DNA from: a virus
Direction: 5' to 3' (one strand)
Length of the DNA stretch: 37,037 bases
Virus record (IMG/VR): IMGVR_UViG_3300027833_000116
Location: 1 to 37,037 of that record
The position numbers were made by a program, and so were the translations under genes. Each line of letters opens with the position of its first letter. Position 1 is the stretch's first letter. Of this stretch, positions 2,990 through 35,685 are shown one piece after another. The notes beneath the pieces are model-generated. The model saw nothing but the letters and a program-made list of their open reading frames with translations. It searched no databases and was not told the DNA's origin.

Positions 2990-3868
2990 TTACTCTGCCG
3001 CTGACTTAGTCTCAGACTCGATTTCTGTTTCTGCAAGCTCTCTTAAACTACGAATTTCATCTTCGTGTTTAATCTGTCTACTGAAACTCGGTAAATGACC
3101 TTGCTCAATTAAAATATCATCTCTGATGTTTTGATTACGCTTCTCAATATTTAGAACTCTAGTAAAGCTATTGTTCACTACTGCGGTATAATAAGCAAAC
3201 GGGTTATCTGACTTAGATTCGTTAAACTGTAAACCAATTTGACTAAGTTGCACTAATGCTTGCCCACGCATTTCGTCAACGTAAGTGTACCCACGCCAAT
3301 TAGCTCTATGCGAATAGCGTTCAACTAGCTTGAGGAACATGGTTCCTAGTTTGTTTGTAATTCTACCGTGATCAATAGAAAAGTCTCCGTTGCTTAAACT
3401 GCCTAGCCAATGACTACGAACAACTTCTACTAGTTCGTTGTTTTGGTAAGCATAATGTTTAAATGCTGGAAAGTTTACTTTTGCTTTGGTATCAGCTTCA
3501 GTTTTTGGATTCTTCTTACGACCCGGTGCCTCCGGAATGTGATCCATGTTTGTTACTCGGAACACAAGTTCCTCAATATCAAACGATTCTGGATCTACTG
3601 CAAATTCTTTTTGCTTAGGTTTGTTTTTATAATCAGCTCTGTCATGGGTTGACATAGCTACGGCGTATCCTTCGCTCTGTACCTTTGCTGATTTATTTCT
3701 TCGTGCTTCGTCAATTACAGAATCAGTAATTTCAGCAACACTACCGACAATAATGTCGTAGTTGTTGTATTTTTCGTCCTGTGCAAAGCAATACGTGAGT
3801 TTGCTTTTATTAATTTCCTTGAGTATGTCTTTATTATTCAAGTAGTTAACTGTGGTTGTTTTCCTCAT
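2990..3868 (-). CDS. 55: gp55-like sigma factor for late transcription, with long N-terminal extension
   Basis: The C-terminal half carries the gp55/sigma region-2 signature: WRGYTYVDEM, then NPFAYYTAVVNNSFTRVL, EKRNQNIRDD and LIEQGHLPSFSRQ. In T4, gp55 binds host core RNA polymerase and recognises the TATAAATA octamer; four such octamers occur in this window. At 292 residues it is much longer than T4 gp55 (185). The first 130 or so residues (opening MRKTTTVNYLNNKDIL) look like a separate conserved domain of unknown role. The clamp-binding tail SLDFLFE/YE of T4 gp55 is not evident; the end is Glu-rich and finishes KSAAE. A GGAG lies 12 bases upstream of the ATG, and a perfect sigma-70 promoter (3899-3926) precedes it. 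Confidence 0.92.
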   Translation of the reverse strand: MRKTTTVNYLNNKDILKEINKSKLTYCFAQDEKYNNYDIIVGSVAEITDSVIDEARRNKSAKVQSEGYAVAMSTHDRADYKNKPKQKEFAVDPESFDIEELVFRVTNMDHIPEAPGRKKNPKTEADTKAKVNFPAFKHYAYQNNELVEVVRSHWLGSLSNGDFSIDHGRITNKLGTMFLKLVERYSHRANWRGYTYVDEMRGQALVQLSQIGLQFNESKSDNPFAYYTAVVNNSFTRVLNIEKRNQNIRDDILIEQGHLPSFSRQIKHEDEIRSLRELAETEIESETKSAAE

Positions 3869-3973: not shown

Positions 3974-3981
3974 GATAAATA
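3974..3981 (+). promoter_or_regulatory. Late promoter octamer (GATAAATA) of the first baseplate operon
   Basis: GATAAATA matches the T4-type late promoter TATAAATA at seven of eight bases. By T4 geometry transcription would start near 3987, giving a leader of about 13 bases that contains AGGAG and leads to the ATG at 4000. This is the only one of the four late promoters here that leaves room for a Shine-Dalgarno sequence. Confidence 0.85.
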
Positions 3982-3999
3982 CATACATAGGAGAATAGT

Positions 4000-4767
4000 A
4001 TGACAAATAGTGGAAAGGGAAGTGGTGTAAGCAGTGTTACTGCATCTACCTATCTATCTTCGCTTGCCGAGCAACAAGATAAAATAAGTGCTGGCATTAC
4101 GACTAAAGGTAAACCACAGAAGGGTATAACTACCCCCGTTGATTGGCGAGCAAGATTAAGACCAAAGAATGGCGGCAGTGATATTTTTTGGAAAGGTAAG
4201 GGTGCTGGCGATTATTTAATGAAGCCGTTGCAGGATACTGGCGGCCTAGTTTGGCAGTATACCCCGGATCTACTTATCAGTGCGCAGGTTAACTACAATA
4301 TGCCGGACTTTCATGGTCAGAACTATCCATTAATGACATATAAGAATACAATGCCACCTGCTATCCCTGTAACATCCGATTTTAGTGCAAACACAATAGC
4401 AGAAGCACGTTACTTGCTAGGTGTTATGCATTTCTGCAAGGTAGCAACAAAGAGTTTCGGCGGTGATGCCGCAGTTGCAGATGGATACTACGGTACTCCA
4501 CCTCCAGTACTATTGTTCGAATACCTAGGAGCACACGGCTTTAACAAGGTACCTGTTGTACTAACATCGTATAATATAAGTTATCCAGCAGATGTTGACT
4601 ATGTGCCTGTGAGAACACAAACAACAGGCGAAGAAGTAACGTATGTTCCTTCGCTAGTTAATATACAGCTCAACTTACAGCCGAGTTATACACCGCATAA
4701 ATTGCGTAAAAGATTCGATCTCGGTGCATTTACTGCTGGTACAAATTACAAGGATGGGTTTATCTAA
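4000..4767 (+). CDS. Baseplate tail-tube cap/initiator (gp48/gp54 family)
   Basis: The protein is expected to sit on top of the baseplate hub and start tail-tube polymerisation. The 255 residues contain features of the T4 gp48/gp54 family: VWQYTPDLLISAQVNYN, FHGQNYPLMTYKNT, then FSANTIAEARYLLGVMHFCKVATKSFGG, PPPVLLFEYLGAHG and PADVDYVPV. T4 has two paralogues (gp48 and gp54), and from sequence alone I cannot say which is closer. A second copy is not in this window. The start is well supported by AGGAG 6 bases upstream and a late promoter just before it. Its stop codon overlaps the next ATG by one base (TAATG), so the two are coupled. Confidence 0.82.
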   Translation: MTNSGKGSGVSSVTASTYLSSLAEQQDKISAGITTKGKPQKGITTPVDWRARLRPKNGGSDIFWKGKGAGDYLMKPLQDTGGLVWQYTPDLLISAQVNYNMPDFHGQNYPLMTYKNTMPPAIPVTSDFSANTIAEARYLLGVMHFCKVATKSFGGDAAVADGYYGTPPPVLLFEYLGAHGFNKVPVVLTSYNISYPADVDYVPVRTQTTGEEVTYVPSLVNIQLNLQPSYTPHKLRKRFDLGAFTAGTNYKDGFI

Positions 4768-10551: not shown

Positions 10552-10589
10552 CCTTTTATTTGAAATTTAAAACTCTGTTTAAAGAAATG

Positions 10590-10597
10590 GATAAATA
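10590..10597 (+). promoter_or_regulatory. Late promoter octamer directly before gp25
   Basis: GATAAATA ends 6 bases before the A of the gp25 ATG at 10603. By T4 late-promoter spacing the first transcribed base would be the start codon itself. No Shine-Dalgarno is present between the octamer and the ATG. Confidence 0.85.
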
Positions 10598-10602
10598 CAT
10601 GT

Positions 10603-10971
10603 ATGGCAACGATATTCAAAGGTTTTAGTACAGTAAACAAGGTTAAGGCACCTTACACCCTTACCGACATGGCACTTGTGAAGCAAGATTTGCTAAACGA
10701 GTTCAATACTCGCAAAGGTGAGCGTGTTATGCGCCCAAACTTTGGTAGCATTATATGGGACTTATTAATGAACCCAGATGATAGTTTTACCACTGACGAA
10801 ATAAAACTAGACATTGAAAGAATCATTGCAAAAGAATCAAGAGTTCAGCTTGTAGACATTACACTTTTTTCAAGTGATCACTCAGTAAGAGCTGAAATAG
10901 AATTGAACTACATAATACTTAACAGTGCAGAAACATTGTTTGTAGAGTTCAACAGGGAACAACAGGTATAA
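10603..10971 (+). CDS. 25: Baseplate wedge protein gp25-like
   Basis: The 122 residues match the gp25/GpW family of wedge proteins that seed the sheath at the baseplate: KGFSTV near the start, YTLTDMALVKQDLLNEFNTR, then GERVMRPNFGSIIWDLLMNP with the family's R-M-R-P-x-F-G core, and a helix-strand C-terminus. Length is close to T4 gp25 (132). The start is secure because family similarity begins at KGFST, six residues in. The ATG is only 6 bases past a late promoter octamer, so the mRNA is predicted to be leaderless. gp6 follows after 3 bases; gp25 and gp6 are partners in the wedge core of T4. Confidence 0.93.
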   Translation: MATIFKGFSTVNKVKAPYTLTDMALVKQDLLNEFNTRKGERVMRPNFGSIIWDLLMNPDDSFTTDEIKLDIERIIAKESRVQLVDITLFSSDHSVRAEIELNYIILNSAETLFVEFNREQQV

Positions 10972-15153: not shown

Positions 15154-18100
15154 ATGTCAGATAAAAAGATTGTAAATCAGTTACCCGTAGTACTGCAAAC
15201 TAAAGCTGTAAAGAACTTCTTTGAAGCAACAGTTGAGCAACTCTACAGTGAAGCTAATACGACCACACTAGCAGGATTCATCGGAAAGAAGACCGGTGAA
15301 GATTACGGATTGTCAGGAGCGTTCCTCAAAGAGGATAACGCTGACAGAAGGCAATATAATCTCTCTCCTGCGGTTAATAACATTAACCCAATTACCGGTG
15401 ATAGTGAAAACTTAGTATTTTATGATGAGTTCATTGATACACTAGGCGTTTACGGTGTTAACACTAGTAACCATAACAGAATATTCGGAAGTAAGTTTCG
15501 TGTGTTTATGCCGCCTATAGAAATTGATAAGTTTATTAACTATCAAGAGTACTACTGGAGTTTAACTGGTCCAAGTGTTTCCACAATTACTGCTACCGCA
15601 GTTTTGCCAATTAACATTGAAAAAGATGTACTTGGGCAAAAGAGCTATACTTATAAGACATTAACACTGCGCAACGGCATGGTGTTAGTATTCTCTGATA
15701 ACAACAATACTATACCAGTCGGGACAACAACATCGTTAAATAAAGCAGGTGTTGAATACATAGTTGGCGGAGTTGGCGAAGGCATTTACTTAACACCTAA
15801 GTTACAAACTACTAGTACATTATACGGTGGCAGTAAAGCAACAACCAAGGATTATATAACAATGCAACGTGGCTCCGGCAACTGTAATGCATGGAGCAGA
15901 ACTAATCATTGGTACCACAGAAATAACTTTACTGATGTAGGCGATAAATTGCCTGCTAGAACATACCGAGCTAACAGACCAATTATTGAATTCAACAAAG
16001 ATATTGAGATGTTTAATGCTGGTACATCTAACTACGGACAAGCAGATGTTGCAGTAGTATCGTTAGATAAATCAGATGTGCAAGGCCAGGTAACAATGAC
16101 AATTGATACCAAGGTCCTAGCGAACGATGACATCATCTTTTTCCCTAACGCAACCACCACAGATTCTAAATACTTATTTAAAGTAGCCGGTGTAGGTGAC
16201 GTTACCGACGGGATTACACTTACTGCTACAAGTAGCACAGCTATAGCTAAAGATCAAACAGTTATTATACATGACGGGTCGTTATATAAAGGATTCGAGT
16301 ATATCTATAATGGTGTATACTATATTCATGGACAGCAAAAGCTAAAGCCTAATTCGAATCCGTTATTTGAATTGTACGATGATGCTGGCAAGAAACTAAG
16401 CAACTTAGGTTTATATAACAACAGTACATTTATAGGTAGTAAAATATTTTGTTATAAAGAAGGCACAGGCATTAACGATAAAGAGTTAGGCTTCCCTTTA
16501 ACATATACTCCATATAAATCAGTTAGTGAAATTACTTTCGAAAATTGTATGCAAACAGATGTTGTAAAATACAAGACATTCGGTGCTACAGCAGAAAGTA
16601 CAATCATTGGTACATTTTATTACAAGCTGTTAAAAGATACTCCAGAGTATTTCTCATACTGGAAACCTAGTACAGCTAAAAACGAACAAAAAATTATTAC
16701 TACTCATTACATTACGCAAACCGAAGTAGATGATAAGACAACAGTTTATAACATCGGTGCCGATCCACATACGTCAACTGTAACTGCAAGTGGGTATGAT
16801 ATACTTGTAACAGTTAACGATGTTATTGTTAACGACTTTACAGTTAATACAAATGCAGAAATCATGTTTACAACGTTTACTTTTAACGCAGGCGACATTA
16901 TTGATATTGAAGTTTCGAGCGATACTGGTATTACTAAAATATCAGATAGCAGATATGAAATCCCATTAAGCTGGAGAGCAAATCCGTACAATGAAGAAAT
17001 TGACTTTCTTGCTGAACCAGAGTACATGTCTCACTTTAATCGCTTCATCGAAAGGCAGGATGGCCTAGTAGGCAATTCTCTAGGTTCTAGTAACTTTGAT
17101 AGCACATCAAAAGATATCAGACATGCTAAAACTATTGTACAAACAGACCAAGATTTAATACTTGCTTCTTTTGCATTAGACGATCAGCCACATAATTTAG
17201 TAGACGCTTTACGTTTCGTAGGAAAAGAATACGAAAAGTATAAAGCACGTTTAATAAAACTAATAGACGATTACTATAATAACTTTGACACATCAGATCT
17301 AAGCAACGAATATGTGTTAGACAGAGTGTTAAGAAACCTTATTACTTATAGCATTGGTAAAGATGTGTTTGGCAGTTCTTATGTTTTACCTTTTGGCGAT
17401 AACTATATCCCGGAAGAGTTTGATGTACAGGATGTAAATGCAACAGTTTACACTTTAACAAATTATGCAGACTTAGACACGCTTACAAATAGCTTATTAG
17501 TTTATAGTGTTGATGCTACAACAAACAATCAAGTATTGTTAACAGTAGACGAAGACTATACTATTAGCACTACTAACCCTATTGTTATTGAAGTAACTAA
17601 GGCAATGCAATTAGCAGATACTATTGTTACTAAACTTTATAACAAAGATAGAGATAGTGCTGAATGTCCACCAACACCAAGTACAATGGGTTTATATCCT
17701 TTGCACGTTCCACGAATAGATGTTGACCATAGTTTTAAAGTCAAGAAGTCTGTGTTGATCGGACACGATGGCAGTAAGACGTTACTAAATGGCGATATTA
17801 GAGACCAGGTACTTTTAGAGTTTGAAATAAGATTATATAATTCTTGTGTATCTCAATTTAGGGTAGCAAACAGTTATGCAACACTAAGTCCATTCCATGT
17901 GCGAGCAGGCAAGTTTAGACCAGATAATTTTAGCACAAACGAATATGCAGATCTATTAAGAACAAGTTTCAGTAATTGGGTAGGTGCAAACAAAGTTGAC
18001 TACGTTACAAACGAATTTTACGATGCCAGTGACAAATTAACATGGAACTACAGCGGTACAGATGCTGAACTACCCGGGCACTGGAGAGGCTGGTTTGAAT

Positions 18101-21100
18101 ATCATTACGATACAGTAAGACCACACACTCATCCTTGGGAAATGATTGGCTTCTTTGAAAAGCCAACATGGTGGGGAACACAGTACGGTGAAGACTTTAG
18201 TAGCACTAACACAGCATTGTGGAGTGATTTAGAGCAAGGCATTATTAGAAGTGGACCAAGAGAAAACTTCATCAACCATGACTACAAATTAAACAATCCA
18301 TTTAGCAGACCAGGGTTATCCTTGCTATTACCGGTCGGTAAATCAGCTAGTGTTTTATTAACACCAGGCGAGATTACTAATACCGGGTCTACTAGTAAAA
18401 CATCAGTATGGACTAATTTACGTCCTAGCAGTACTGATGTTGCAGACCAATTTAAAGATGTAAACGGTTCAAACGGTTTAGCAAACGGCATTGGTGCAAC
18501 ATACGGTAGCTCTAGAGCTTCGCGAGTTATATTCGATGCAAATGATGCACCGAGCCCAGGCACGTTCTGGGATTACGATGGCACAGTTAGTGGATCAGTA
18601 GTTGGTTCGGGCTTTGCTGAAGGCCTTGACGGATTTGAAACTCCGTATGTTTACATTACTAATCAAAATACAAATAAAAGATATCAGTTATTTAATTACA
18701 CATTCGAACAGTTAGCGCCATCGCAGAATCATGTTTTAGAACTTAAAGACAAACTTCCTGCAACAGGCGCAATTGCTGTTACAGTAACAGGTGTACCTGT
18801 CTTAAATCCTGCAAATGTTGATACATGGAACAACGAAGGCGCATGGACTTACTCAGATGTTTACAATAACGAAGTTGTAGAAAATGCTACATACTTTATT
18901 GAAGCAGAGCAAGCGGGTATAGCAGAGTTTAGCACAACTGAACATTCACCTGTAGTTGCATGGGCATTCGATGGTTTACCAATTTACGGACCTTACGGTT
19001 ATACACAATACTACGCCGGAAACGGGCAAATTGAAACTAACACAATTACTAATATAAAAAGTCCTTTTATTTTAAGAAGCGGAACAAGAGCAACTGGGCC
19101 AGGCGGCACACATACTGGTGAGTTCGTAGAAGATTACACTTATAATATTGCACTAGCAGGAACAGCAGGGTACACAGGCGGTCAAGGAGATCACGGTAGA
19201 TATAATTTACGATACGGTGTTACACCTGACAGCGGTGGCGTACCGATTCACTTCTATGTTGCAACCCAGGACGATTCCGGGGCACCTATGTTCCCGTATC
19301 ACGTTGGCGGCACTGTTAGCAATGCCATTAACACATACGAAGGCCGTTATTACGGCGAAGCAGTTGAGAAAGATAAGAACAGTTCCGGTACAATAACAGA
19401 CGATGGCACACTAGTTGCTATATCAAGTAATAGAGTTATTACTCCTGTTACAAATACTAGCATCAGTAATGCTTGGAGATTCGGAGACGGAGCTCCAGTA
19501 GAGAATGCGTGGAAGTACAGTGTAGGATACCCGTTTGCAGTAGTTGAATCTATGTTGCTAAGTAAGCCAGGTAGATTTGCAACATTGTTCTCAGACCCAT
19601 TAATGAATGCAACACCTGCACTAGACACTAGCAAAGTTGTTAACAAAGTTACTAGAAAGCCTTTTGACTTTAGAAACAAAGAGCATTTCCATATACATGG
19701 CACAATAGATGATAACAACAACTTAATAACAAACGTAGGTTATACCCAGTTTATTCACAGCTGGTTAACGTACCAAGGATTAAATACAACAACTGACTAT
19801 GCAGATAAAGTTAGAAAAGTAAACATTAAGTTAGCACACAGAATGGCTGGCTTTACTGACAAAGATACTTTAACAGTTAGAGCAGATCAAACTAGTGTAA
19901 CTACTACATCTACTAACTTAATTATTCCAACAGAAAGTTATGATATTGTTGTACATGCTTCGCCATATAAGAACAGAAATTTCTACAGTGGCATTAGCAT
20001 ACAAAAAGTATCAAACGGATACAAGATACAGGGCTTTGATAAAAACTTTGGCTACTTTAATAGTATGCGCAGAAGCCTTACTGGTAGAACTACTAATATA
20101 CAAGTCGGTGGCGATGCAGTTGATTACGTTAATTGGTCTCAAAACACTAGCTACATTAAAGATACAGTTGTTGTAAACAACAATGCCTATTATCGGGCAC
20201 CTACTTTAGTTACAAGCAGTGATGTGTTTATGCCGTCATTATGGACTAGGTTACCTAGCTTACCAACAACAGGCGCAGTAAAAGCAGTTCTGTATTTAGA
20301 TGACGAGCCGTATATAGATAGAATTAATTATCAAACAGTATACGAAACATTCCAGGATGTAGTAAATACTATTATGGGCATCGGAGCCTATCAGGAGAAA
20401 CAAGGTTACGACTTTGGAATTTTTGATGCAGGCATACAAGCTGTAAGAAACTGGAGTTACTCGATTAAGCAATTCTTGTTCTTTGTTGCAGGCGGCTGGG
20501 AACAAAATAATACTATTGATCTAAGTCCAATGGCTAACAAGTTAACGTTCACTAGTACTACTGGCATGGTCGCTAAGATTATGCGATCAGATAAGAACCA
20601 GTTTACATTAATAGATCAAGACGGCAGAGCAATACAGCCTACAGAATGTGAGATAGTCAGAGATGGCAACACAATAGAAATTGTCCCCCCTACTGGCATA
20701 CAGATTTACGGTGCAATGCTGTTCACAAAAGAAATTGAACATGCAATGATATTTGATAACGTAACAGACTTCAATGATACATTGTTTAGTCCTAAGTGGA
20801 ACCAAGCACAAAGACGATTACGAATTAAAGGTAAGCGTACTGCTAACTGGAGCGGGTTGTTTAGTTCAGAAGGATTTATTATACAAGGTGATGAACTTAA
20901 ACCTAACTTAGATAATATGGCGCAGAGCTTGGGTCGTTATCATGAACTAGGATTCATTCCAGTTGAGAAACAAATTTATGAGCAAGCACGTGGACTATTT
21001 GGATACCAAGAAAGAACATATCTAACAAACTTAGAGCTTGAAGATGATGACCAGTTTGAATTCTATAAAGGTATGTTGCAGAGCAAAGGTACTGCTAAGA

Positions 21101-24100
21101 GTTTACAGAAAGTTGCTAAGAGTAAGAACATTATTCAGGGTGAGATGGGTGTATTTGACGAGTGGGCATTAAAAGTTGGCGACTTCGGCGACTTAGAAAA
21201 CGATCAAACAATTGAACTCAAATTAGAAAAGAGTGATGTAATACACGATCCTCAAATGATTACGTTGGCGTTTCCAGAAGATACAACAGGTATTATTGGG
21301 AAGGTTAACGTCATTGAACCGAAACACAGATACTTTGATGCGCCAATACTAGAGATTGCGGCTCCAAGTAATTTTCCTAAAGTGCAAGCAACAGCGTCAG
21401 CTGTATTAGCGGCAGACGGGACACTAAGCTCAGTTAACATTACTAACGCAGGCACAGGCTATGCACAGCCTGTACGTTTAGAGGTAATTGCAGGTGTACT
21501 AAGTATTGCAAATATTAGTACTATGTTTAATACTCCGATTGCAGTAAGTTCGAGTGCAATCTTAGATACAGATGTTCCCGGCCTATCGTTATCTACCCTT
21601 ATAATAAGTAATGTAGCAGATGCGAGTGTTAACATAGATCTAAGTGCTGTTACTTCTATTGCAAACGTAGTAACATTAATTAACGAAAAGGCATTGATTA
21701 ATTCACATGTTACTGCTGGATCGATTGAGAGTAGAGTGGTATTAGGCAATGCTGTAGTATCACAACATGTACTAACATTAACTGGTAATGATTTCACACT
21801 TGCTGGTGACACTGCTACACTTGCGGGACTTAATTTAGTAGCAGGTAGATACCAACCTAAGCAACGTTATTCGATCGGATCAGTTGCTAATGTTACTGGC
21901 ACCGATCATGGCGCCACTACTGCCGCTAATGTACGAGTTACAGTAGCAGGCGACGATGTTCCTTCAAACAGTGGCACTAACTGGATCTATAATCCGGGTA
22001 CTCGCCAACAGATTCCGTTTGCTATATCAGGGTCAGGTAGCACAGATTCAAGTAATGGAGTGGCTGAATCAGGTGATGTTAACATATCATTGCCAGTCGC
22101 TATTGATACATTGAATACAGCTAAAGAAAATAATTTAGTGTATCCACATGTAAATGTTTTTGTTAACGGCAATCAGTTAATAAACGATGTCGGTAACCCA
22201 AGATACTCATTAACTACAAATCAACTTACAATTCATAGTGTTGAGCAATTAGTTGAGAGCGGAATAAGAGAAGGTGCAAATGTTTACGTTGTGGAAAATA
22301 GTACAGTTGAATTCCAACCTTCATTCTTACTTGATGTACCAGGCGCAAATTTAAATATTAAAGTATTAACAGAAGACAACATTGCAATTACAACTAGAAC
22401 ACAAAGGTTGTATGACGTAACAGCGGATAGTAAAACAGACGATGTTATCTTTATAGACATTGATGATACTACAAGATTCTTAAAGAAGCCACTCGGTGTA
22501 AGAGATCAAAACTTATGGCCTACAATGGCTAACGTAGATTACACCGGTATAACTGACGCTCGTTATCACAGTATTCCGAATGCTGGATACGTTAATAGTT
22601 CAAATGTTGATTTTAGCTCTTTTGATATTCCGAGTATTGCTTCAATGTTTGACAAAGACATATTAATACACCCTGAAGAATTAAGCACAGTGCATGTTGC
22701 TGTAGCTGAAAACCAGGACTGGAACGTTTACAGATTCAAGAAAGTTAATACTAACATAGCGTTCGTTGAACAAGAGTCAGACGATGAGACTGCATACTTG
22801 TATGCAAATACATCATTGTTTACTTACACTGATCAAAATCAAATTGGCAACACAATTGATCCAGGTAGATTCTTAGATTATCATATTGCAGTTAAAAACG
22901 GCATCATGTCAGACAAGTTTGTTGTTTGGGTTAACGAAGAAACTGTTGATCAGAAGCAAGTACGACTATCAAACATTACGCCAATTGATATGATAGAAAC
23001 ACAAATTACTAGCCTAGGCCCAAATGTTATAACAAACATTACAGATATTCAGCCAGGCATAAGTGGGTTTGCAGTAGCTGAAGTAATCGGTAACTACGAT
23101 GGTACAGGTACTGCATTAGTCTATACAACTGTTAATGGCATAGATTCGCAGGTAAGTCCGACGATTGGATTTAGTACTGCTAACATAACAACTGACGAAC
23201 AAGTATTGTTTGGCAATGAATACGTTGCATCTAATATTAATACTACATCTGGTACATTTACAATTAACGAACAGGCGTTAACAGGCAACATTGCCGCTGG
23301 TAATGCAATGGTTAGATTCTTTAACAGAACTAAAATTACAGCACCCGGTCACGGACTTGGCGGTGGCCAGGAAGTTAAGATTGTTGCAGGCGGCTACAGT
23401 GGACAATGGCAAGTAGAAGGTGCAAGCGACGACACGTTTATGATCGACACTCAGTATGTAACTGGCGGTGTTACAACAGGTAACATTTTATTGCCTGAGA
23501 TCTTAATTACAACAACAGCGGCGCACGATATTAAAGCAGACTACCTAGACAAGAACATCGCAGTACACAACGCAACACAGCGTTACTACAACGGTGTTTA
23601 CAAGGTTAAAGAAGTACCTAGTGCAACTACGTTACTAGTTACTGGTGCGTTCCCGTTTGCTGATCAAGCAAACGTTAACTCCACTGATGCTTCACAGCCG
23701 GTTAGTGTATTAACTACACTTGACCATGATAAGATTTACTTAAACAACTCTGCTATTAAGATAGATAACATTAGCAGTTTAGACGGCATGATAGAATCGT
23801 TAAACATGTCACTCGAAATTAGAAGAGGATGGATACAAAGGCAGGGTAGTTTAAATATATCTATTCCGATGATGAGACTTCCTATGATGCCAGGTACTAA
23901 CCAGGGCTTACATCAGATAGGCGGCTTGACACCTCATGTTACTAATCAATTCCCTATTAGCACAAAAAATCTAGCAGTAGCAGGTGCTATCCCAGTTGAC
24001 TGGAAAAAGTTATCAAAGGTAGGATTTAATAAATCTAAGAGTGGACACCCAGCAGTCAGGGCTAGACCTATGCCTAGAACTACTAGAAGTGGCGCAGTTA

Positions 24101-27100
24101 CTAAAAACAGATCGACAACTATTAATACGTCACCGTTTAATCAGTATAACTCACTTAGCTCTCAAGTTGCTAACGGAAGAGGCATTGTCCTACCAACAAG
24201 TAATATTTTAGCTTCAGGTATGCCTACTTCAGTACTACCGCAAACCCCAGCAACATCTGCCGCGGCAAACATACTATCCTCGTTTGGATCAGGCAAGATA
24301 AACATGTTAACCGGTAACTTCGGACTAGGCGGCAATAGCTACGGTGGCGGAAGCATTACACTTAATTTGGGGGGCAGTGGCGGCTATGGCGGAATGGGAC
24401 AAACTACTATTCCTGCTAATCCTCTACCGCCAGCTAGACCTACCGGTAGACCAAATAGACAGAAAACAGTAATAGCAAAACCTCAGACGATAGCGTCAGT
24501 ACCGGCACCGATTAAAATTAAGACAAAGAAGCCAACGCAGAGCACAAACAATAACGGTGCAGTTGTAATAACAGGTAGTGTTGTACAAACATTAAAACCT
24601 AGACCATGTGGAGCGGCATTTATACCTGCTCCACCTAAGCCGCCTGTTCCACCTAATGCACGACCAAAAGCAGTTAACGATAGTTATGCTACTTCGTTTG
24701 AGACCCCTGTGTCGTTATCAGTATTATCCAATGATTCAGATGCAGACGGTAATACTTTAACAGTACAAAGCTACACACAACCTGCTAAAGGCACACTTGC
24801 AGTTGTTGGCGGCGCTACATCAGGCAGATTTACATATACGCCGGATGCAGGCTTTACTGGTTCAGATTCTTTTGCTTACACAGTATCAGATGGTGCCGGA
24901 GGCACAGCAACAGCAAAAGCAACAATAGCTGTTGGTGTTAAACCTGCAACACCGGTTACGCCTACTAAAACTAGCTTCATGAAAGAAGAGTTAGTAGAGC
25001 AGTCAGTTACAACACAGGGTGTAGACGATACTTGGAAATATCATATTCCTGTTGCAGGCAGAATAAAAATTATTATAGATATGGATGCCGCAACAGACAG
25101 ACTGTCAGCATACCAAAACCTTAACAACCATGGTTTACAAACGTCACCTAGGAAAGGCTGGACTGGAGCCGGTGTTAGAAGAGCAACACAACAAGAAAAA
25201 GATAAACTGTGTGATGCACGTGGTATAAAGAAACCAAAACCCCATGGCGGCACTGCTAGTGCAAACTACGGCTACATATCTATTGGCCATATAGGCATTG
25301 GCGGCGGCGGAGGCGGCGGCGGTTATTATAGTGGTGGAGCATTAAGAGACTTCGTACAGGATGGCGCAGGAATTAAGTACTGTGGCGTAATTGAGTTTGA
25401 TTGGAATCCTGCTAAAGGCGAATGGTTGAAAGTATTTGTAGACAAACTAAGTTCAGTATATAGATATTTAATTATCTATCCTACTTTAACTAATACTTCC
25501 TCAACAGGTAGACAACAAGCCGCATATTCGGGTGCTAGTAAAGCACCGAGTACAGTTGCAAAGAAAGCAACACCTATTTTTAAACCAACTGGTAAACCTA
25601 TTAGTAAAAAGAAAGTAGCACGTCACAGAGGTGGACGCAGTGGCGGCAATTATAGATATGCCGCGGCAGGTAATTTCTATGTAAGTAACTACGGTGGATT
25701 TAGTATCGCACCAATGGCCGGCTACAGCTTTATGCCAAGTGTATTCAAGAAGACAGTAAAAGTATCAAATCCGGATAATGTTGGTAGAGGTGCTGATTTA
25801 ACTGCTAGTGATTTTGTAAACAATGTATTCCAGCGTGTATCCGGAGGCAGAATTATTCCTCTAAGTGCTCCACCTATTGCGCCTATTGCAATTCCTAACA
25901 GAGGCATACGAGGGTTAGGACTAGCTAGCCAGGCAGGGTACGCTACATTAGGAAACTCGGGCACATTTAGAAACATGACTGTAGACCCTAAGGTATTACA
26001 GATTTCTAGTAGCAACTACGATATACAAAACTTAACAAGCCCAGGCACATTAGGCGCAGACGGAAGCAGTGGCACTAGCGGAACAAACGGCAGTGGAATC
26101 GGCGGAACTGCTGGCAGAGGCGGACGAGGCGGAACACTAGGTACAAACGGAACAAACGGCACAGCTAACGGAACATTCGTTATCCCAGGTGAATCAATTG
26201 CTACTCCTACGTTTACTGCAGGCCCGACACCGTTTGTTATACCAGGCGGCACAGTATATGATAGTTCAACGTTTAGAGGATTAGACAATACATTTAGTAA
26301 TAGTCTTATTCCTGCTGAAACACTTAACAGTGAAGATTCACCGTTAGATTCTACAATAGACTACGAAGACAAGCCAGTACTAACAATACAGGCTAAGAGA
26401 AAGATTCTTAATCCGGATGGCACATATACATATACGCCAGCTGGCCCAGTAGCAGTATGCCCGGTATGGTCACCTACTCCAAACGTTGTTATGAACGAAG
26501 ATGATGTTAGGGGATTAACCCCAGGTGATTCTATTGTTGTTAACAACAAAGCAATTAAGATACCAGGAACACCCGGCGCAGTACTAACAGAATTTGAATG
26601 TAGCGGCGGCTTCGGTTACACTACATCTATTACTACAAAGTTCGGTAAGCCAGCAGTTAAACTATCTAGTTGTACAAATGCTCCTATTACCTTTAAAGAA
26701 GGTTGCAGAGGCGGGGTTTACAAAGAAGTATTAGACTTTCACATTGTTAAGAACTTCTCACTAAGTGATTCATCACAGCAAGGATTTGACTTTACAAATG
26801 TAAGTCAAGACTTATCAGCTGGTGGTAACTTCCAGTCAGGCCCAATACCAGCCGCAAATATAAGTACGACAAAGCAAGGCACGTTTACAACAACGATGCC
26901 AGTAGTTAAAACTAATAATGTATTCACAGGCGGAGCAAACTACAGAGTAGGCGATAGACTGAGAGTTATTGGCGGCACACCTATAGCATCACCGTTTGGA
27001 TCAGTACACGAATTATGCGTTGAGCTCGAAGGCAGAGACTACTCATCAGAAGGAAACATTAAAGTATTCATAGGCGACGGAACAACACCTGGTTCTGAAG

Positions 27101-30100
27101 CAGAAGTTGAATCAGTTGAATTTAATACAAATGACGATGCTAACGGCATTAAGTCAATTAAATTAAAAGCAGGCGGACAGGGTTACGATCCAGCAAGACC
27201 GCCTAAGATTAGAATTGTTGACATTGGCGCAGGTAGTAACGGCCCAGCACCTACTCCTGCTAAAGTTAGACCTATTATTAAAACACAGGCTATGGGTGTC
27301 GATGGCAAGATGCACGATACAAGTGGCTTACCAGAAAGAGTTGCTAAGTTTAGAGTTGCACAAGTTGATCCAGTTACTGGCGCAATTTGGTCATTAGTGA
27401 TCTTAGACAGAGGCGTATACAAAGAGTTCCCAGCAGATTTAACAACTGGTGTTGCGCTTGAATACGATTCAATCGGACTAGGTGATGAGCATTCTGGCTC
27501 ACTACCACCGACAAGTGCTTCCGGGTTAGGACAATTTGATCCTATAACATTCGAAAGATTAGGCCCTGCAGGTAGTTACAGACCGAATGAAGGTATCTAC
27601 GGAGAACTTTCAGGTGAACCTGCTTACGGCACAGGCGCAAAAATATTCTTAACAGCTAGAGAGATTCCAGACTGTTCTGAAAAGGGCGATGCACTATCTA
27701 AGTTAGGTTTCCCAGGATCAGTACTAGACGTTCCTTATGTTCAGCATTTAGCAGACTTGTTAAACGAAGCATTAATAGCGGCTGGATATGATCCAATAGA
27801 TATAAACTTTACAGTTACTCCGATTAACGATGATCTCGACCAATTAGAACTATCAAGTCCAACATTTGACGGTGTTGAATTTGACGAGCTTACTCCAGGC
27901 TTCCTAGACAAGTTAGGATTACCGCCTGGAGATTACAATGCGGACATGACTCCTTTATCTGTAGTAGACGGCACACCAACTAACGATGTTAATATTAGTA
28001 TTGAAGATCTCGAAGGATTACTATCAACCGGCGGACCAGGAACTACTGGCACCGGCGGTCTAGGCGGAACAGGCGGCGTAGCAGGCACTAACGGCACTAT
28101 AGGCGGAGGAACAGGCGGGACTGGCGGCATAAACGGAAACAGCGGGCTAGGTGGCGGAAGCAGTACTAGCAGAACAGGTACAGAATTGCCAGAAGAAACA
28201 ATGGTTATCTACGGTGTGGACAACGGCGGCTTTAACAGTGACGGTAGCAGTATGTTAGGTAATGCAAACGTTACTTATGTCGGCGACCTATTCCAATACG
28301 AGCTACGTGATTTAGATGGTGGCCCAGTGCAGAGCACAGAAGATTCTGCTAGTGTTGAAATCTTGTACTTAGAAAGTGAGCGTTATGAAACCGAAACTGG
28401 ACTAACACTTGCTGATAAAGCAAATGTATGGATTGATAATTACAACAGTACAGGTAAGTGGGCATACTTAGAAGGCACTGACATAAAGCGTTCACAAACA
28501 GATTTAGTTGATCCTAAGTTTATTAGAAATACAATTATATACGATGCTACAACTGGTGAGAAAGATTATGATTACGACATGTGGGATCCGTTTAAAGGCG
28601 TACTACCTGCATTCGTTGATGCTGAAATAACATACTTTAGTAAGCATGACCCAGTAGCATACTCGGCACATCGTGCTATGTTTGGCGCAGAGAACATAGG
28701 TCAAGTATGGTGGGACACTAATACAATAAGATACAACTGGTATGAGCAAGGTTCGAACAGAGAGCGTTGGTTAAACTGGGGTAGTTCATTCCCAGGTAGT
28801 GCAATTACTTTATATGAGTGGACAGAAAACTTATCTCCACCGTTATCGTATACTGGCACAGGCACACCAAAGAATGGTAGCGAGTTTATAGTCGAAAGAC
28901 GTATAGAACCTACTACTGGCTCATTTGTTAACTATTATTACTACTGGGTGCAGAATGTTAACGCACTTACTAATAAAGCAATAACACAGCAAAACAGAAA
29001 GTTTACTACGTTTGAACTTGCTAGATACTTAGCAGATCCAATCGGACAAGGATTAAATACTGTTAGCTATATTAGTGCTGGAACATCTACATCAGAAAAC
29101 ATTGCAAGTTTTGTAATGGGCAATCTTACTAAGACATTGCGGGAAGATGAGCAAAACATACAAATTAATTTAAGCAGAAATCTTAATCCGTTAGGATTAA
29201 AGCATGCGGCGTGGAAACTTGTTAGAGAGAATGATAACAATAGTGTAATACCTGAAGACCTGTCAACTAAACTTATTGATAGTTTATGTGAGAGTGATGT
29301 AATAGGAAACGTAGTACCAGGAGCTAACCTCAGTGAAATTGAGCGTTACGGTGTTCAATTCCGTCCTCGTCAAACAATGTTTAAAAATCCTAAGCAAGCT
29401 AGACGTGCATTGCAGTATGTTATTAATGAAATACTAGCAGACATGAAATTAAATACACTTTACCCAGGCTGGGACAGTGTGTTACCGACTAATAACTTTG
29501 TTGAAACAATCAATTGGTATGATACACAACGTACTGACGGTGCAACAAATAAGAAAGTTAGATTCGATGATAGTTACAAAGCGGCATTTACTGTTAAGAG
29601 TGTAAAAGCACTAGATTCAGTTAACAGCGCAAATATCCCAGACGGCCAGGTTGTAATGGTAAGAGCTTCACAAAGCGAGAGATTTCAGCTGTGGAGATGG
29701 GATAGTCGTAGAGTTAGATTCTATCAAATGGCAATTCAAAATGAAACTGTTAGATTAAAAGATACAATACATACTAGTACAATTACACCTGCAATGCAAG
29801 CAGAGTTAAGGGCGTTCTTGACAGCACTTAAAGATACTGTATTCCAGGGTACTTCAAACTTTAATAGTGTATTCTTTGAAATGATGAAGTTTGCAATCGG
29901 AGAACATCAAGAACTTGACTGGGCATTTAAAACGTCATACATTTACGTTGAAAAAGAAGAAGAAGATCTTGTACAGCGTAAAGGTTATAAGCCAGACAAC
30001 TTTGACAGTGTACTAGAATACATGAATGAAGTCAAGCCTTATACTTCTAAAATTAGAGAGTACAAGGATGGTAAACGTGCTCCTATAGAATATATAAACA

Positions 30101-31905
30101 ATCAAATGCTTAGTGACTTTGATGTTCCTCCTTATGCTGACAGTGCATTAGGCACAATCAGAACACTAGACTTTACTAACGCAACTGACTATGCGCTAAT
30201 GGAAACGGATACTGATTATGCTAAAGTGTATAGTAAATACACAGCAGGCCAGCTAAATTGGGATAGCACAAGAGTATACGACGCTGTTAACGGCCCAGAA
30301 GCCGGACACACAACGGTAGCTCCTGTAAGAACAGGTAATGTTAGTCTTGTATTTGATAGAACTGATTGGCGTTTAGTTGAGGCACAGCATGACGCATCAA
30401 CAACTACTTACTCTCAGAGTATTGGCCAAAACATTGCAAACATAAATCTTGCAAATGTTGCAACTATATCAGATCTTACTAATAATAGTTACACAGCAAG
30501 TGGTAGACTGTTTAAGTTTGATGCGGAAGTTAGGACACAGTTTAATGCAGAAGTCGATACTTACTACGGAACAGGGGCAAGTGGTAATACAGATATTACA
30601 ACTAACGCAACTAAGATGGCAACGGCTGTAACAGCAGGCGCACTTAATAAGACTTTATACTTAGTGAAAGAGAAAGTAGGTGGCACATGGCAAGGTGGAG
30701 AACTAGATGCTAACGTGTTTACACAAAGTGTTGATGGCAGTGATTCACTATCATTACAATCTGCATACGGTTACGATACTACACCATTCGATTATGAAGA
30801 CGGCTTCGGTAAGGCGTTTGACAGTATGATCTTAGTAGAAAATTATGAAGGCATATTTAAAGGCAATAGTGACTACAGAGTTGAAGGTGTTACTTATAGT
30901 GGTTTTGATGGATTTAGCTTTAATCACTTATTATACGGCGAAGAAAGACCTGAGGAATTAGTATACCTTAGTCCTTTAGAAAACTTTATTATGTCCGTGC
31001 GTACAGACCCAATTGCATACGACGGCACTGGTACGCCAGTAGCGGCTTTGAGTGTTGGTCCATATGTTGCAGATTCTATTACAGCTTCAGATGCAAATGC
31101 AACAATTACTATTACTAGTCCACTAGCAAGTATGTTATTAAATAATAGCGATATTGTTAAACTAGTAGATGAATCGAATACTGTATTAGCAGGATCGCAT
31201 ACAATCAGCAACGTTACATCAACTACATTCACTATTAACTTATCTGGTGTTACTGCTAACGTAGTATCTTTGGCTGGCAATGTTACGATAACAAGTGGTA
31301 TTGATGCAGTATCAGTTGAATACATTATACATAACGACTTATACGGGCAGTCTGAATACTTACGAGTATTAACAGACGGTAGCACATCTACTACAATTGC
31401 TAAGGCAATTAATGCATGGGACACGGAGATTACAGTACTAGATTCAACTTTACTACCGCAACCACAGCCAGGCAAACCAGGCGCTATTTGGATTAGTAAA
31501 TCTGAGCGTGTTGAGTACGCAAGAATTGTAGGAAACGTGCTTAAAGATATTACACGCGGCACTAGAGGTACAGTTGTGCCTGCAGGCGATATTTACTCAT
31601 ACACCGGTAACGTTGCAGTAAGAACTGCGTTAACCCAGACACACGTTGTTGGGGCAAGTGTAGTGGCAGCCGGGGCTAGTGAGGTGTTTAATACATCAAC
31701 GTCGGATGGCGGTTCAGTAGGATACGATAGTAGAGATCCAGAAGATTCTAACTGGTTAAACCCAACAGGAGCACAAAAGAGCTTAACAGACCGATCAAAT
31801 AGATCAAGTACACAGAAGATTTCAGCATTCTTGCAGGGTGATAGCATTGCAAGTATTGGATTTGACAGTCGTGGATTTGATACAGTCGGATGGGACAGCT
31901 TTTAA
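15154..31905 (+). CDS. Giant virion structural protein (5583 residues), probable baseplate/tail periphery
   Basis: One unbroken frame of 16.75 kb. Much of it resembles long structural proteins of marine T4-like phages: residues 1-1000 include RVFMPPIEIDKFINYQEYYW and HPWEMIGFFEKPTWWGTQYG; the C-terminal quarter includes YFSKHDPVAYSAHRAMFGAE, TMFKNPKQARRALQYVINEI and VKPYTSKIREYKDGKRAP. Inserted or linked domains are a YHYH-like domain (about 1210-1386), a cadherin-like Ig domain (3173-3261), Gly-rich and collagen-like blocks (3050-3082, 3383-3390, 3630-3675, 4293-4336) and several GxGY segments. The end has short repeats around YDSR, FDSRGFD and GWDSF. It follows gp6 where T4 has gp7-gp10, so it may replace several wedge and short-fibre proteins (inference). 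No signal peptide or membrane segment was seen. Confidence 0.88.
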   Translation: MSDKKIVNQLPVVLQTKAVKNFFEATVEQLYSEANTTTLAGFIGKKTGEDYGLSGAFLKEDNADRRQYNLSPAVNNINPITGDSENLVFYDEFIDTLGVYGVNTSNHNRIFGSKFRVFMPPIEIDKFINYQEYYWSLTGPSVSTITATAVLPINIEKDVLGQKSYTYKTLTLRNGMVLVFSDNNNTIPVGTTTSLNKAGVEYIVGGVGEGIYLTPKLQTTSTLYGGSKATTKDYITMQRGSGNCNAWSRTNHWYHRNNFTDVGDKLPARTYRANRPIIEFNKDIEMFNAGTSNYGQADVAVVSLDKSDVQGQVTMTIDTKVLANDDIIFFPNATTTDSKYLFKVAGVGDVTDGITLTATSSTAIAKDQTVIIHDGSLYKGFEYIYNGVYYIHGQQKLKPNSNPLFELYDDAGKKLSNLGLYNNSTFIGSKIFCYKEGTGINDKELGFPLTYTPYKSVSEITFENCMQTDVVKYKTFGATAESTIIGTFYYKLLKDTPEYFSYWKPSTAKNEQKIITTHYITQTEVDDKTTVYNIGADPHTSTVTASGYDILVTVNDVIVNDFTVNTNAEIMFTTFTFNAGDIIDIEVSSDTGITKISDSRYEIPLSWRANPYNEEIDFLAEPEYMSHFNRFIERQDGLVGNSLGSSNFDSTSKDIRHAKTIVQTDQDLILASFALDDQPHNLVDALRFVGKEYEKYKARLIKLIDDYYNNFDTSDLSNEYVLDRVLRNLITYSIGKDVFGSSYVLPFGDNYIPEEFDVQDVNATVYTLTNYADLDTLTNSLLVYSVDATTNNQVLLTVDEDYTISTTNPIVIEVTKAMQLADTIVTKLYNKDRDSAECPPTPSTMGLYPLHVPRIDVDHSFKVKKSVLIGHDGSKTLLNGDIRDQVLLEFEIRLYNSCVSQFRVANSYATLSPFHVRAGKFRPDNFSTNEYADLLRTSFSNWVGANKVDYVTNEFYDASDKLTWNYSGTDAELPGHWRGWFEYHYDTVRPHTHPWEMIGFFEKPTWWGTQYGEDFSSTNTALWSDLEQGIIRSGPRENFINHDYKLNNPFSRPGLSLLLPVGKSASVLLTPGEITNTGSTSKTSVWTNLRPSSTDVADQFKDVNGSNGLANGIGATYGSSRASRVIFDANDAPSPGTFWDYDGTVSGSVVGSGFAEGLDGFETPYVYITNQNTNKRYQLFNYTFEQLAPSQNHVLELKDKLPATGAIAVTVTGVPVLNPANVDTWNNEGAWTYSDVYNNEVVENATYFIEAEQAGIAEFSTTEHSPVVAWAFDGLPIYGPYGYTQYYAGNGQIETNTITNIKSPFILRSGTRATGPGGTHTGEFVEDYTYNIALAGTAGYTGGQGDHGRYNLRYGVTPDSGGVPIHFYVATQDDSGAPMFPYHVGGTVSNAINTYEGRYYGEAVEKDKNSSGTITDDGTLVAISSNRVITPVTNTSISNAWRFGDGAPVENAWKYSVGYPFAVVESMLLSKPGRFATLFSDPLMNATPALDTSKVVNKVTRKPFDFRNKEHFHIHGTIDDNNNLITNVGYTQFIHSWLTYQGLNTTTDYADKVRKVNIKLAHRMAGFTDKDTLTVRADQTSVTTTSTNLIIPTESYDIVVHASPYKNRNFYSGISIQKVSNGYKIQGFDKNFGYFNSMRRSLTGRTTNIQVGGDAVDYVNWSQNTSYIKDTVVVNNNAYYRAPTLVTSSDVFMPSLWTRLPSLPTTGAVKAVLYLDDEPYIDRINYQTVYETFQDVVNTIMGIGAYQEKQGYDFGIFDAGIQAVRNWSYSIKQFLFFVAGGWEQNNTIDLSPMANKLTFTSTTGMVAKIMRSDKNQFTLIDQDGRAIQPTECEIVRDGNTIEIVPPTGIQIYGAMLFTKEIEHAMIFDNVTDFNDTLFSPKWNQAQRRLRIKGKRTANWSGLFSSEGFIIQGDELKPNLDNMAQSLGRYHELGFIPVEKQIYEQARGLFGYQERTYLTNLELEDDDQFEFYKGMLQSKGTAKSLQKVAKSKNIIQGEMGVFDEWALKVGDFGDLENDQTIELKLEKSDVIHDPQMITLAFPEDTTGIIGKVNVIEPKHRYFDAPILEIAAPSNFPKVQATASAVLAADGTLSSVNITNAGTGYAQPVRLEVIAGVLSIANISTMFNTPIAVSSSAILDTDVPGLSLSTLIISNVADASVNIDLSAVTSIANVVTLINEKALINSHVTAGSIESRVVLGNAVVSQHVLTLTGNDFTLAGDTATLAGLNLVAGRYQPKQRYSIGSVANVTGTDHGATTAANVRVTVAGDDVPSNSGTNWIYNPGTRQQIPFAISGSGSTDSSNGVAESGDVNISLPVAIDTLNTAKENNLVYPHVNVFVNGNQLINDVGNPRYSLTTNQLTIHSVEQLVESGIREGANVYVVENSTVEFQPSFLLDVPGANLNIKVLTEDNIAITTRTQRLYDVTADSKTDDVIFIDIDDTTRFLKKPLGVRDQNLWPTMANVDYTGITDARYHSIPNAGYVNSSNVDFSSFDIPSIASMFDKDILIHPEELSTVHVAVAENQDWNVYRFKKVNTNIAFVEQESDDETAYLYANTSLFTYTDQNQIGNTIDPGRFLDYHIAVKNGIMSDKFVVWVNEETVDQKQVRLSNITPIDMIETQITSLGPNVITNITDIQPGISGFAVAEVIGNYDGTGTALVYTTVNGIDSQVSPTIGFSTANITTDEQVLFGNEYVASNINTTSGTFTINEQALTGNIAAGNAMVRFFNRTKITAPGHGLGGGQEVKIVAGGYSGQWQVEGASDDTFMIDTQYVTGGVTTGNILLPEILITTTAAHDIKADYLDKNIAVHNATQRYYNGVYKVKEVPSATTLLVTGAFPFADQANVNSTDASQPVSVLTTLDHDKIYLNNSAIKIDNISSLDGMIESLNMSLEIRRGWIQRQGSLNISIPMMRLPMMPGTNQGLHQIGGLTPHVTNQFPISTKNLAVAGAIPVDWKKLSKVGFNKSKSGHPAVRARPMPRTTRSGAVTKNRSTTINTSPFNQYNSLSSQVANGRGIVLPTSNILASGMPTSVLPQTPATSAAANILSSFGSGKINMLTGNFGLGGNSYGGGSITLNLGGSGGYGGMGQTTIPANPLPPARPTGRPNRQKTVIAKPQTIASVPAPIKIKTKKPTQSTNNNGAVVITGSVVQTLKPRPCGAAFIPAPPKPPVPPNARPKAVNDSYATSFETPVSLSVLSNDSDADGNTLTVQSYTQPAKGTLAVVGGATSGRFTYTPDAGFTGSDSFAYTVSDGAGGTATAKATIAVGVKPATPVTPTKTSFMKEELVEQSVTTQGVDDTWKYHIPVAGRIKIIIDMDAATDRLSAYQNLNNHGLQTSPRKGWTGAGVRRATQQEKDKLCDARGIKKPKPHGGTASANYGYISIGHIGIGGGGGGGGYYSGGALRDFVQDGAGIKYCGVIEFDWNPAKGEWLKVFVDKLSSVYRYLIIYPTLTNTSSTGRQQAAYSGASKAPSTVAKKATPIFKPTGKPISKKKVARHRGGRSGGNYRYAAAGNFYVSNYGGFSIAPMAGYSFMPSVFKKTVKVSNPDNVGRGADLTASDFVNNVFQRVSGGRIIPLSAPPIAPIAIPNRGIRGLGLASQAGYATLGNSGTFRNMTVDPKVLQISSSNYDIQNLTSPGTLGADGSSGTSGTNGSGIGGTAGRGGRGGTLGTNGTNGTANGTFVIPGESIATPTFTAGPTPFVIPGGTVYDSSTFRGLDNTFSNSLIPAETLNSEDSPLDSTIDYEDKPVLTIQAKRKILNPDGTYTYTPAGPVAVCPVWSPTPNVVMNEDDVRGLTPGDSIVVNNKAIKIPGTPGAVLTEFECSGGFGYTTSITTKFGKPAVKLSSCTNAPITFKEGCRGGVYKEVLDFHIVKNFSLSDSSQQGFDFTNVSQDLSAGGNFQSGPIPAANISTTKQGTFTTTMPVVKTNNVFTGGANYRVGDRLRVIGGTPIASPFGSVHELCVELEGRDYSSEGNIKVFIGDGTTPGSEAEVESVEFNTNDDANGIKSIKLKAGGQGYDPARPPKIRIVDIGAGSNGPAPTPAKVRPIIKTQAMGVDGKMHDTSGLPERVAKFRVAQVDPVTGAIWSLVILDRGVYKEFPADLTTGVALEYDSIGLGDEHSGSLPPTSASGLGQFDPITFERLGPAGSYRPNEGIYGELSGEPAYGTGAKIFLTAREIPDCSEKGDALSKLGFPGSVLDVPYVQHLADLLNEALIAAGYDPIDINFTVTPINDDLDQLELSSPTFDGVEFDELTPGFLDKLGLPPGDYNADMTPLSVVDGTPTNDVNISIEDLEGLLSTGGPGTTGTGGLGGTGGVAGTNGTIGGGTGGTGGINGNSGLGGGSSTSRTGTELPEETMVIYGVDNGGFNSDGSSMLGNANVTYVGDLFQYELRDLDGGPVQSTEDSASVEILYLESERYETETGLTLADKANVWIDNYNSTGKWAYLEGTDIKRSQTDLVDPKFIRNTIIYDATTGEKDYDYDMWDPFKGVLPAFVDAEITYFSKHDPVAYSAHRAMFGAENIGQVWWDTNTIRYNWYEQGSNRERWLNWGSSFPGSAITLYEWTENLSPPLSYTGTGTPKNGSEFIVERRIEPTTGSFVNYYYYWVQNVNALTNKAITQQNRKFTTFELARYLADPIGQGLNTVSYISAGTSTSENIASFVMGNLTKTLREDEQNIQINLSRNLNPLGLKHAAWKLVRENDNNSVIPEDLSTKLIDSLCESDVIGNVVPGANLSEIERYGVQFRPRQTMFKNPKQARRALQYVINEILADMKLNTLYPGWDSVLPTNNFVETINWYDTQRTDGATNKKVRFDDSYKAAFTVKSVKALDSVNSANIPDGQVVMVRASQSERFQLWRWDSRRVRFYQMAIQNETVRLKDTIHTSTITPAMQAELRAFLTALKDTVFQGTSNFNSVFFEMMKFAIGEHQELDWAFKTSYIYVEKEEEDLVQRKGYKPDNFDSVLEYMNEVKPYTSKIREYKDGKRAPIEYINNQMLSDFDVPPYADSALGTIRTLDFTNATDYALMETDTDYAKVYSKYTAGQLNWDSTRVYDAVNGPEAGHTTVAPVRTGNVSLVFDRTDWRLVEAQHDASTTTYSQSIGQNIANINLANVATISDLTNNSYTASGRLFKFDAEVRTQFNAEVDTYYGTGASGNTDITTNATKMATAVTAGALNKTLYLVKEKVGGTWQGGELDANVFTQSVDGSDSLSLQSAYGYDTTPFDYEDGFGKAFDSMILVENYEGIFKGNSDYRVEGVTYSGFDGFSFNHLLYGEERPEELVYLSPLENFIMSVRTDPIAYDGTGTPVAALSVGPYVADSITASDANATITITSPLASMLLNNSDIVKLVDESNTVLAGSHTISNVTSTTFTINLSGVTANVVSLAGNVTITSGIDAVSVEYIIHNDLYGQSEYLRVLTDGSTSTTIAKAINAWDTEITVLDSTLLPQPQPGKPGAIWISKSERVEYARIVGNVLKDITRGTRGTVVPAGDIYSYTGNVAVRTALTQTHVVGASVVAAGASEVFNTSTSDGGSVGYDSRDPEDSNWLNPTGAQKSLTDRSNRSSTQKISAFLQGDSIASIGFDSRGFDTVGWDSF
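18781..19311 (+). other. YHYH-like domain inside the giant protein
   Basis: Residues 1210-1386 read TVTGVPVLNP, then a Trp-containing stretch, HSPVVAWAFDGLPIYGPYGY, and finally MFPYHVGG. The central and final motifs are hallmarks of YHYH-domain proteins, seen in bacterial secreted proteins and marine phage structural proteins. The short YHYH signature that should precede the HSPV block is not visible; NATYFIEAEQAG stands there instead. Confidence 0.75.
24301..24399 (+). other. Gly/Asn-rich low-complexity linker in the giant protein
   Basis: Residues 3050-3082 (FGLGGNSYGGGSITLNLGG and a following GGYGG) form a flexible Gly-rich segment. A Pro/Arg/Lys-rich stretch follows, up to a Pro cluster (PAPPKPPVPP) just before the Ig-like domain. 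It marks the left border of a region that looks unlike the rest of the protein. Confidence 0.6.
24670..24936 (+). other. Cadherin-like/tandem-95-type Ig domain in the giant protein
   Basis: Residues 3173-3261 contain AVNDSYATSFETPVSLSVL, SNDSDADGNTLTV, GRFTYTPDAGFTGSDSFAYT and VSDGAGGTATAKATIAVG. This is the standard pattern of the cadherin-like/Big-type repeats of bacterial surface adhesins, with the acidic NDSDADGN loop expected to bind calcium. It occurs as a single copy and is flanked by Pro-rich sequence. Confidence 0.82.
25300..25323 (+). other. Eight-glycine run in the giant protein
   Basis: Residues 3383-3390 are eight consecutive glycines, preceded by IGHIGI and followed by YYSGG. 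The codons are mostly GGC with one GGA and one GGT. It is likely a flexible hinge. Confidence 0.6.
26041..26178 (+). other. First collagen-like Gly-X-Y block in the giant protein
   Basis: Residues 3630-3675 have Gly at nearly every third position (GTLGADGSSGTSGTNGSG and then GG-rich triplets), with one phase shift. Collagen-like triplets are common in phage fibres and can trimerise. Pro is nearly absent, so a collagen helix is not certain. Confidence 0.6.
28030..28161 (+). other. Second collagen-like Gly-rich block in the giant protein
   Basis: Residues 4293-4336 repeat GGP, GTT, GTG, GLG, GTG, GVA, GTN and similar triplets, then more GG-containing triplets. It closes the unusual central region, after which similarity to marine phage structural proteins resumes (YGVDNGGFNSDG). 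Confidence 0.6.
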
Positions 31906-31925: not shown

Positions 31926-31933
31926 GATAAATA
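31926..31933 (+). promoter_or_regulatory. Late promoter octamer before the 211-residue structural gene
   Basis: GATAAATA lies 20 bases after the giant gene's stop codon. Its last base is 7 bases before the A of the next ATG (31940). A start at about 31939 would leave a leader of about one base. Confidence 0.82.
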
Positions 31934-35640: not shown

Positions 35641-35673
35641 AAAAAGCCAGACTTTCGAGTTTGGCTTTTTTTT
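35641..35673 (+). terminator. Rho-independent terminator after the fibre operon
   Basis: AGCCAGACT (35645-35653) pairs with AGTTTGGCT (35658-35666), one G-T pair included, around a TTCG tetraloop (35654-35657). A run of eight Ts (35666-35673) follows. The upstream A-run extends the stem. It lies 28 bases after the stop of the last fibre gene. Confidence 0.93.
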
Positions 35674-35677
35674 GGGT

Positions 35678-35685
35678 AATAAATA
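35678..35685 (+). promoter_or_regulatory. Late promoter octamer (AATAAATA) immediately after the terminator
   Basis: AATAAATA begins 4 bases after the terminator T-run. It ends 6 bases before the ATG at 35691, the same spacing as at gp25. The predicted first transcribed base is the A of the start codon. Confidence 0.8.

Follow-up and report, generated by a model that had tools for sequence, protein, structure and literature searches.

Predicted leaderless mRNAs at gp55-type late promoters in a largely marine group of T4-type jumbo phages

Late genes of phage T4 are transcribed from gp55/gp33/gp45-dependent promoters carrying the octamer TATAAATA, the first base of which is −13, about one helical turn before +1 (PMC2988020). 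Phage mRNAs that begin directly at the start codon are known from other systems. The lambda cI transcript is the classic example, and AUG is the preferred start codon of leaderless mRNA in Escherichia coli (PMC9031893). Most middle and late mRNAs of the Thermus thermophilus phage phiYS40 are reported to be leaderless, with IF2 rising and IF3 falling (PMC3594737). A search of open-licence papers revealed no report of leaderless mRNAs for gp55-type promoters or for the phage clade considered here. Within that literature, leaderless phage mRNAs as such are already known, and their predicted occurrence in a clade with gp55-type promoters appears to be new.

The window analyzed is an IMG/VR record that covers a 37-kb piece of the genome of a jumbo T4-type phage. 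Here, a late-promoter octamer, GATAAATA, occupies positions 10590–10597 of the plus strand, and five bases without a Shine-Dalgarno (SD) sequence (catgt, 10598–10602) separate it from the ATG of gp25 at 10603, a distance of 6 when counted from the octamer end to the ATG. The gene (10603–10971, plus strand) encodes the gp25 baseplate wedge protein (Pfam PF04965, 48.9 bits, with PHROG support), and its start position is secured by alignment of Met1 across 13 relatives. Both the octamer-to-ATG distance and a gp25 start fixed by family similarity had been put forward in a preliminary description of this DNA, and both agree with the present analysis. Given a gap of 5 and the T4 register, in which the octamer begins at −13, roughly one helical turn ahead of the transcription start, A10603 would be at once +1 and the first base of the start codon, and the gap is predicted to span −5 to −1. 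An out-of-frame ATG beginning within the gap, at 10599, would be excluded from a transcript starting at 10603. As in T4, NATAAATA is present at the −10 position, the predicted start is some one helical turn further on, and a gp55-type late sigma factor, the presumed reader of the octamer, is encoded in the window itself (2990–3868, minus strand; phrog_12791, E 3e-91; phrog_234, 7e-26). The −13 base differs from T4, being G (or A, C, T) in the phages described here.

Three further plus-strand promoters in the window are informative. The octamer AATAAATA at 35678–35685 stands 5 nt before the ATG of a predicted leaderless gene without PHROG match (35691–36050), and an intrinsic terminator, AAAGCCAGACTTTCGAGTTTGGCTTTTTTTT (35641–35677), ends directly at this promoter. 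Orthologues of the gene in two relatives (G001 and G018) also show gap 5. At 31926–31933, GATAAATA lies 6 nt before the ATG of a phrog_11259 gene (31940–32575), which is predicted to be leaderless or to have a 1-nt leader and whose orthologues mostly show gap 5. The recurrence of the gp25 spacing at the first of these sites, and its near recurrence at the second, had been pointed out previously and holds as gaps of 5 and 6. The contrasting case is GATAAATA at 3974–3981, with a gap of 18 that accommodates an SD sequence (AGGAG, 3989–3993) before a virion structural protein gene assigned by PHROG (4000–4767). The earlier claim that only this promoter leaves room for an SD stands within the window but fails across the clade, where leadered late promoters are common. 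When one mismatch was allowed, the window contained 79 octamers against 89 expected, which is no enrichment; thus, the signal is one of position and not of number. A single ORF of 5583 amino acids (15154–31905) occupies nearly half of the window.

The preliminary description had proposed octamer-to-ATG distances before gp25 in related genomes as a check, a tight peak favoring the leaderless prediction. Such a peak was observed: gp25 from 26 IMG/VR relatives, 53–78% identical to that of the window, was preceded by the octamer at gap 5 in 26/26 cases, with varying gap letters and no SD in any. Further gp25 loci recovered in a scan of 80 gp55 loci again showed gap 5. Most of the nearest jumbo phages in culture, PA5oct, RaK2 and GAP32 among them, have a gp25 that is 39–45% identical to that of the window, and an SD precedes gp25 in 8/8 cultured relatives (PA5oct, RaK2, CBB, GAP32, Atu_ph07, Phosso, Vibrio phage 2.275.O and S-H38). 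PA5oct (Arenbergviridae), the nearest cultured relative by terminase identity (58%), shares gp25, the terminase and late octamers, again with offset 5 occupied by A; it differs in that its gp25 starts with GTG behind an SD and is separated from its octamer by a leader (gap 23), and at most two of its genes combine gap 5 with ATG. The ATG of the PA5oct terminase (match at record position 128879, within L090, PA5oct 120001–140000) follows a terminator within ∼10 nt, with neither octamer nor SD, and this gene may possibly be leaderless too.

The same spacing was found genome-wide. In a 250,519-bp relative (G001), 26 of the 66 octamers upstream of ORFs stood at gap 5, all before ATG (binomial P = 3e-29), and among 20 other arrangements of the seven letters of ATAAATA the best reached 3 at gap 5. 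Corresponding gap-5 counts were 15/62 in the 340-kb relative G013, 9/28 in G020, 7/24 in G018 and 5/24 in G014, the excess across these five genomes having P values from 3e-29 to 4e-5. Pooled, 74/204 late octamers upstream of genes in these relatives stand 5–6 nt before the start codon. By contrast, no octamer stood at gap 5–6 in T4, RaK2 or cyanophage S-H38, and ATG lay at +1 in 0/30 T4 promoter-start pairs, compared with about a third in this clade. Lambda cI, transcribed from PRM, likewise begins at AUG, but it is a single gene, whereas the spacing here is conserved for a class of genes throughout the genome.

A clade set was defined as the five large relatives, G004 and the window, with gene starts taken from a simple ORF caller and some of them provisional. 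In this set, 80 genes had gaps of 5–6, of which 79 start with ATG and only 3 have an SD, compared with 88/114 with an SD among genes at gaps of 15–60. Gap 6 accounted for 12 genes and gaps of 7–8 for 8, spacings that imply leaders of 1–3 nt. The range from 9 to 14 was nearly empty (3 genes), as would follow from selection against leaders that cannot accommodate an SD. For gp25, for most terminase sequences and for the gap-5/6 genes genome-wide, the start codon lies at, or no more than 1 nt from, the predicted +1. The terminase illustrates conservation of this arrangement: among 44 distinct upstream sequences with differing flanks, 25 showed gap 5 and 8 showed gap 6 (33/44 together), and in several of the remainder the corresponding position is taken by a CTAAATA variant. 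Spacing before the phrog_11259 gene is kept likewise among relatives. Moreover, when G001 genes were compared with orthologues having a called octamer, promoter class (leadered or leaderless) was the same in 56/61 pairs.

The position of +1 may be approached from the leadered promoters. In 114 of these, ATA occurred at offset 5 in 32 and at any other offset in at most 16, and 73 had A at offset 5. Transcription would therefore start at one common position in both classes, with ATA favored where a leader follows and ATG where there is none. The T4 start register is assumed here, and this signal lends it independent support by placing +1 at offset 5. The A-richness of the start of the coding region did not differ between leaderless and leadered classes.

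Taken together, these data make it highly probable that a mostly marine group of jumbo T4-type phages transcribes a large minority of its genes, from late and sigma70-type promoters alike, as leaderless mRNAs; the proposal of a class of leaderless late mRNAs, made initially from the window, is strongly supported by the tight gap peak in relatives. In the mechanism envisaged, NATAAATA, spanning −13 to −6, would be recognized by a gp55-type sigma factor, and transcription would begin with the sixth base beyond the octamer, a position that leaderless genes give to the A of their start codon. The resulting mRNA would begin with AUG and enter the leaderless route, through binding of a 70S ribosome or IF2-assisted binding to the 5′-terminal AUG. 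Other late genes would use the same promoter, with a preference for ATA as bases +1 to +3, and would have an SD and a leader of at least 10 nt. Exact 5′ ends can thus be predicted for dozens of genes in a widespread uncultured phage group, in which orthologous late genes would differ between SD-led and leaderless initiation. One sigma factor serving genes with and without leaders would constitute a natural two-class set for testing what leaderless initiation is for, and gene callers that depend on SD motifs may misplace leaderless starts.

The composition of the two classes may bear on this purpose. Predicted leaderless genes in G001 include those for the terminase large subunit, gp25, a head-tail adaptor, a PAAR-type protein, a thioredoxin-like protein and unknowns; leadered genes encode sheath, tube, portal, a baseplate hub protein and large fibers, and the major capsid gene has an SD and lies inside an operon. 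The division may follow protein copy number, with low-copy proteins made from leaderless mRNAs. A more far-reaching possibility, which we consider clearly less likely than not, is that the clade or its host moved generally to leaderless initiation and that the presence or absence of a leader sets protein output gene by gene (baseplate wedge, terminase and neck adaptor without a leader; sheath, tube and portal with one), perhaps together with a phage ribosome factor. A bS21 ribosomal protein homologue is encoded in the 340-kb relative (G013:C1:145827-145979, locus L383); phage-encoded bS21 was rejected as a ribosome modifier, given its presence in only 1/10 records. A search for hosts through relatives in GTDB genomes returned only three weak matches, in MAGs labelled Rickettsiales and Gammaproteobacteria. 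An alphaproteobacterial host was rejected as the cause, since no gap-5 peak appeared in the 400 kb read from Agrobacterium phage Atu_ph07.

The preliminary description had also raised the possibility that the initiation mode switches as infection passes from early to late. For such a switch from SD-led to leaderless initiation, phiYS40 provides a reported precedent (PMC3594737), and the leaderless set comprises mainly late promoters. A switch is not supported here. In the five large relatives, the majority of late promoters are leadered, usually with an SD, and predicted leaderless starts extend beyond late genes. Sigma70-type promoters (near-consensus TTGACA, a 16–18-bp spacer and a −10 at most one mismatch from TATAAT) placed the ATG at the usual +1, 6 nt beyond the −10 hexamer, in 15/86 cases in the clade, compared with 0/118 in T4, RaK2, PA5oct and S-H38. 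Examples of TTGAC-17-TATAAT in which exactly this 6-nt distance separates the −10 from the ATG lie on the G001 minus strand near 13914, 20751, 54886, 121850 and 206827 (strand-relative; loci L054–L066) and mark predicted leaderless early or middle genes. The peak of ATG at +1 in this promoter type implies that leaderless placement would be a general feature of the clade. Although many phage genes here, as in phiYS40, are predicted to use a 5′-terminal AUG, the gp55-type promoter, the mixed classes and the placement shared with sigma70-type promoters set this group apart, and a true switch appears highly improbable.

It could also be argued that octamer-N5-ATG is itself a translation signal, A/U-rich and Kozak-like as in SD-poor hosts such as Flavobacteriia, with transcripts starting further upstream; the AT-richness of the region and the lack of an SD in gap-5 genes are compatible with this. 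However, the octamer also stands 15–60 nt before genes with an SD, where ATA is found at the same offset, the phage encodes its own gp55, and several octamer-N5-ATG units directly follow terminators. The strong SDs in these phages indicate, in addition, that the host uses SD sequences. We therefore regard a Kozak-like role as very unlikely.

The promoter might alternatively be real while most of the mRNA comes from read-through of an operon, so that translation depends on coupling or reinitiation. Some gap-5 octamers do overlap the preceding gene at its 3′ end (in G001, for instance, near 20843 and 245236), and such genes could be served in this way as well. By contrast, read-through does not require a fixed 5-nt gap, and terminators precede several units. 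An intrinsic terminator lay closely upstream of 7/79 gap-5/6 promoters, including that at 35641–35677 of the window, compared with 6/700 random positions. In IMG/VR-wide scans, where the terminator fraction among the matches listed and not abundance was compared, a terminator was found upstream of 24/99 GATAAATA-N5-ATGGCA sites, 3/75 gap-4 (N4) sites and 1/62 gap-7 (N7) sites. A terminator directly upstream means that a leader from read-through is not easily supplied for those genes, and little credence can be given to read-through as the main source of mRNA. Chance spacing at AT-rich promoters, conceivable from the three cases within the window, is excluded for practical purposes by the genome-wide gap peak, the 26/26 gp25 loci and the letter-arrangement control.

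An imperfect inverted repeat, TTTAAAAC-TCT-GTTTAAA (10566–10583, plus strand), lies just upstream of the gp25 octamer, unlike in T4, whose late promoters have no conserved −35 region. Elements resembling ATTAAAAC-N3-GTTTTAAT are kept upstream of the gp25 octamer in relatives (L004–L029) and also occur before the phrog_11259 gene. As a determinant of leaderless placement the repeat was rejected, being equally rare at leaderless-type (8/79) and leadered (10/114) promoters; it could be bound by a dimeric regulator. Among G001 promoters, the first octamer base was G in 30/35 leadered and 11/26 gap-5 cases, a possible difference in promoter strength.
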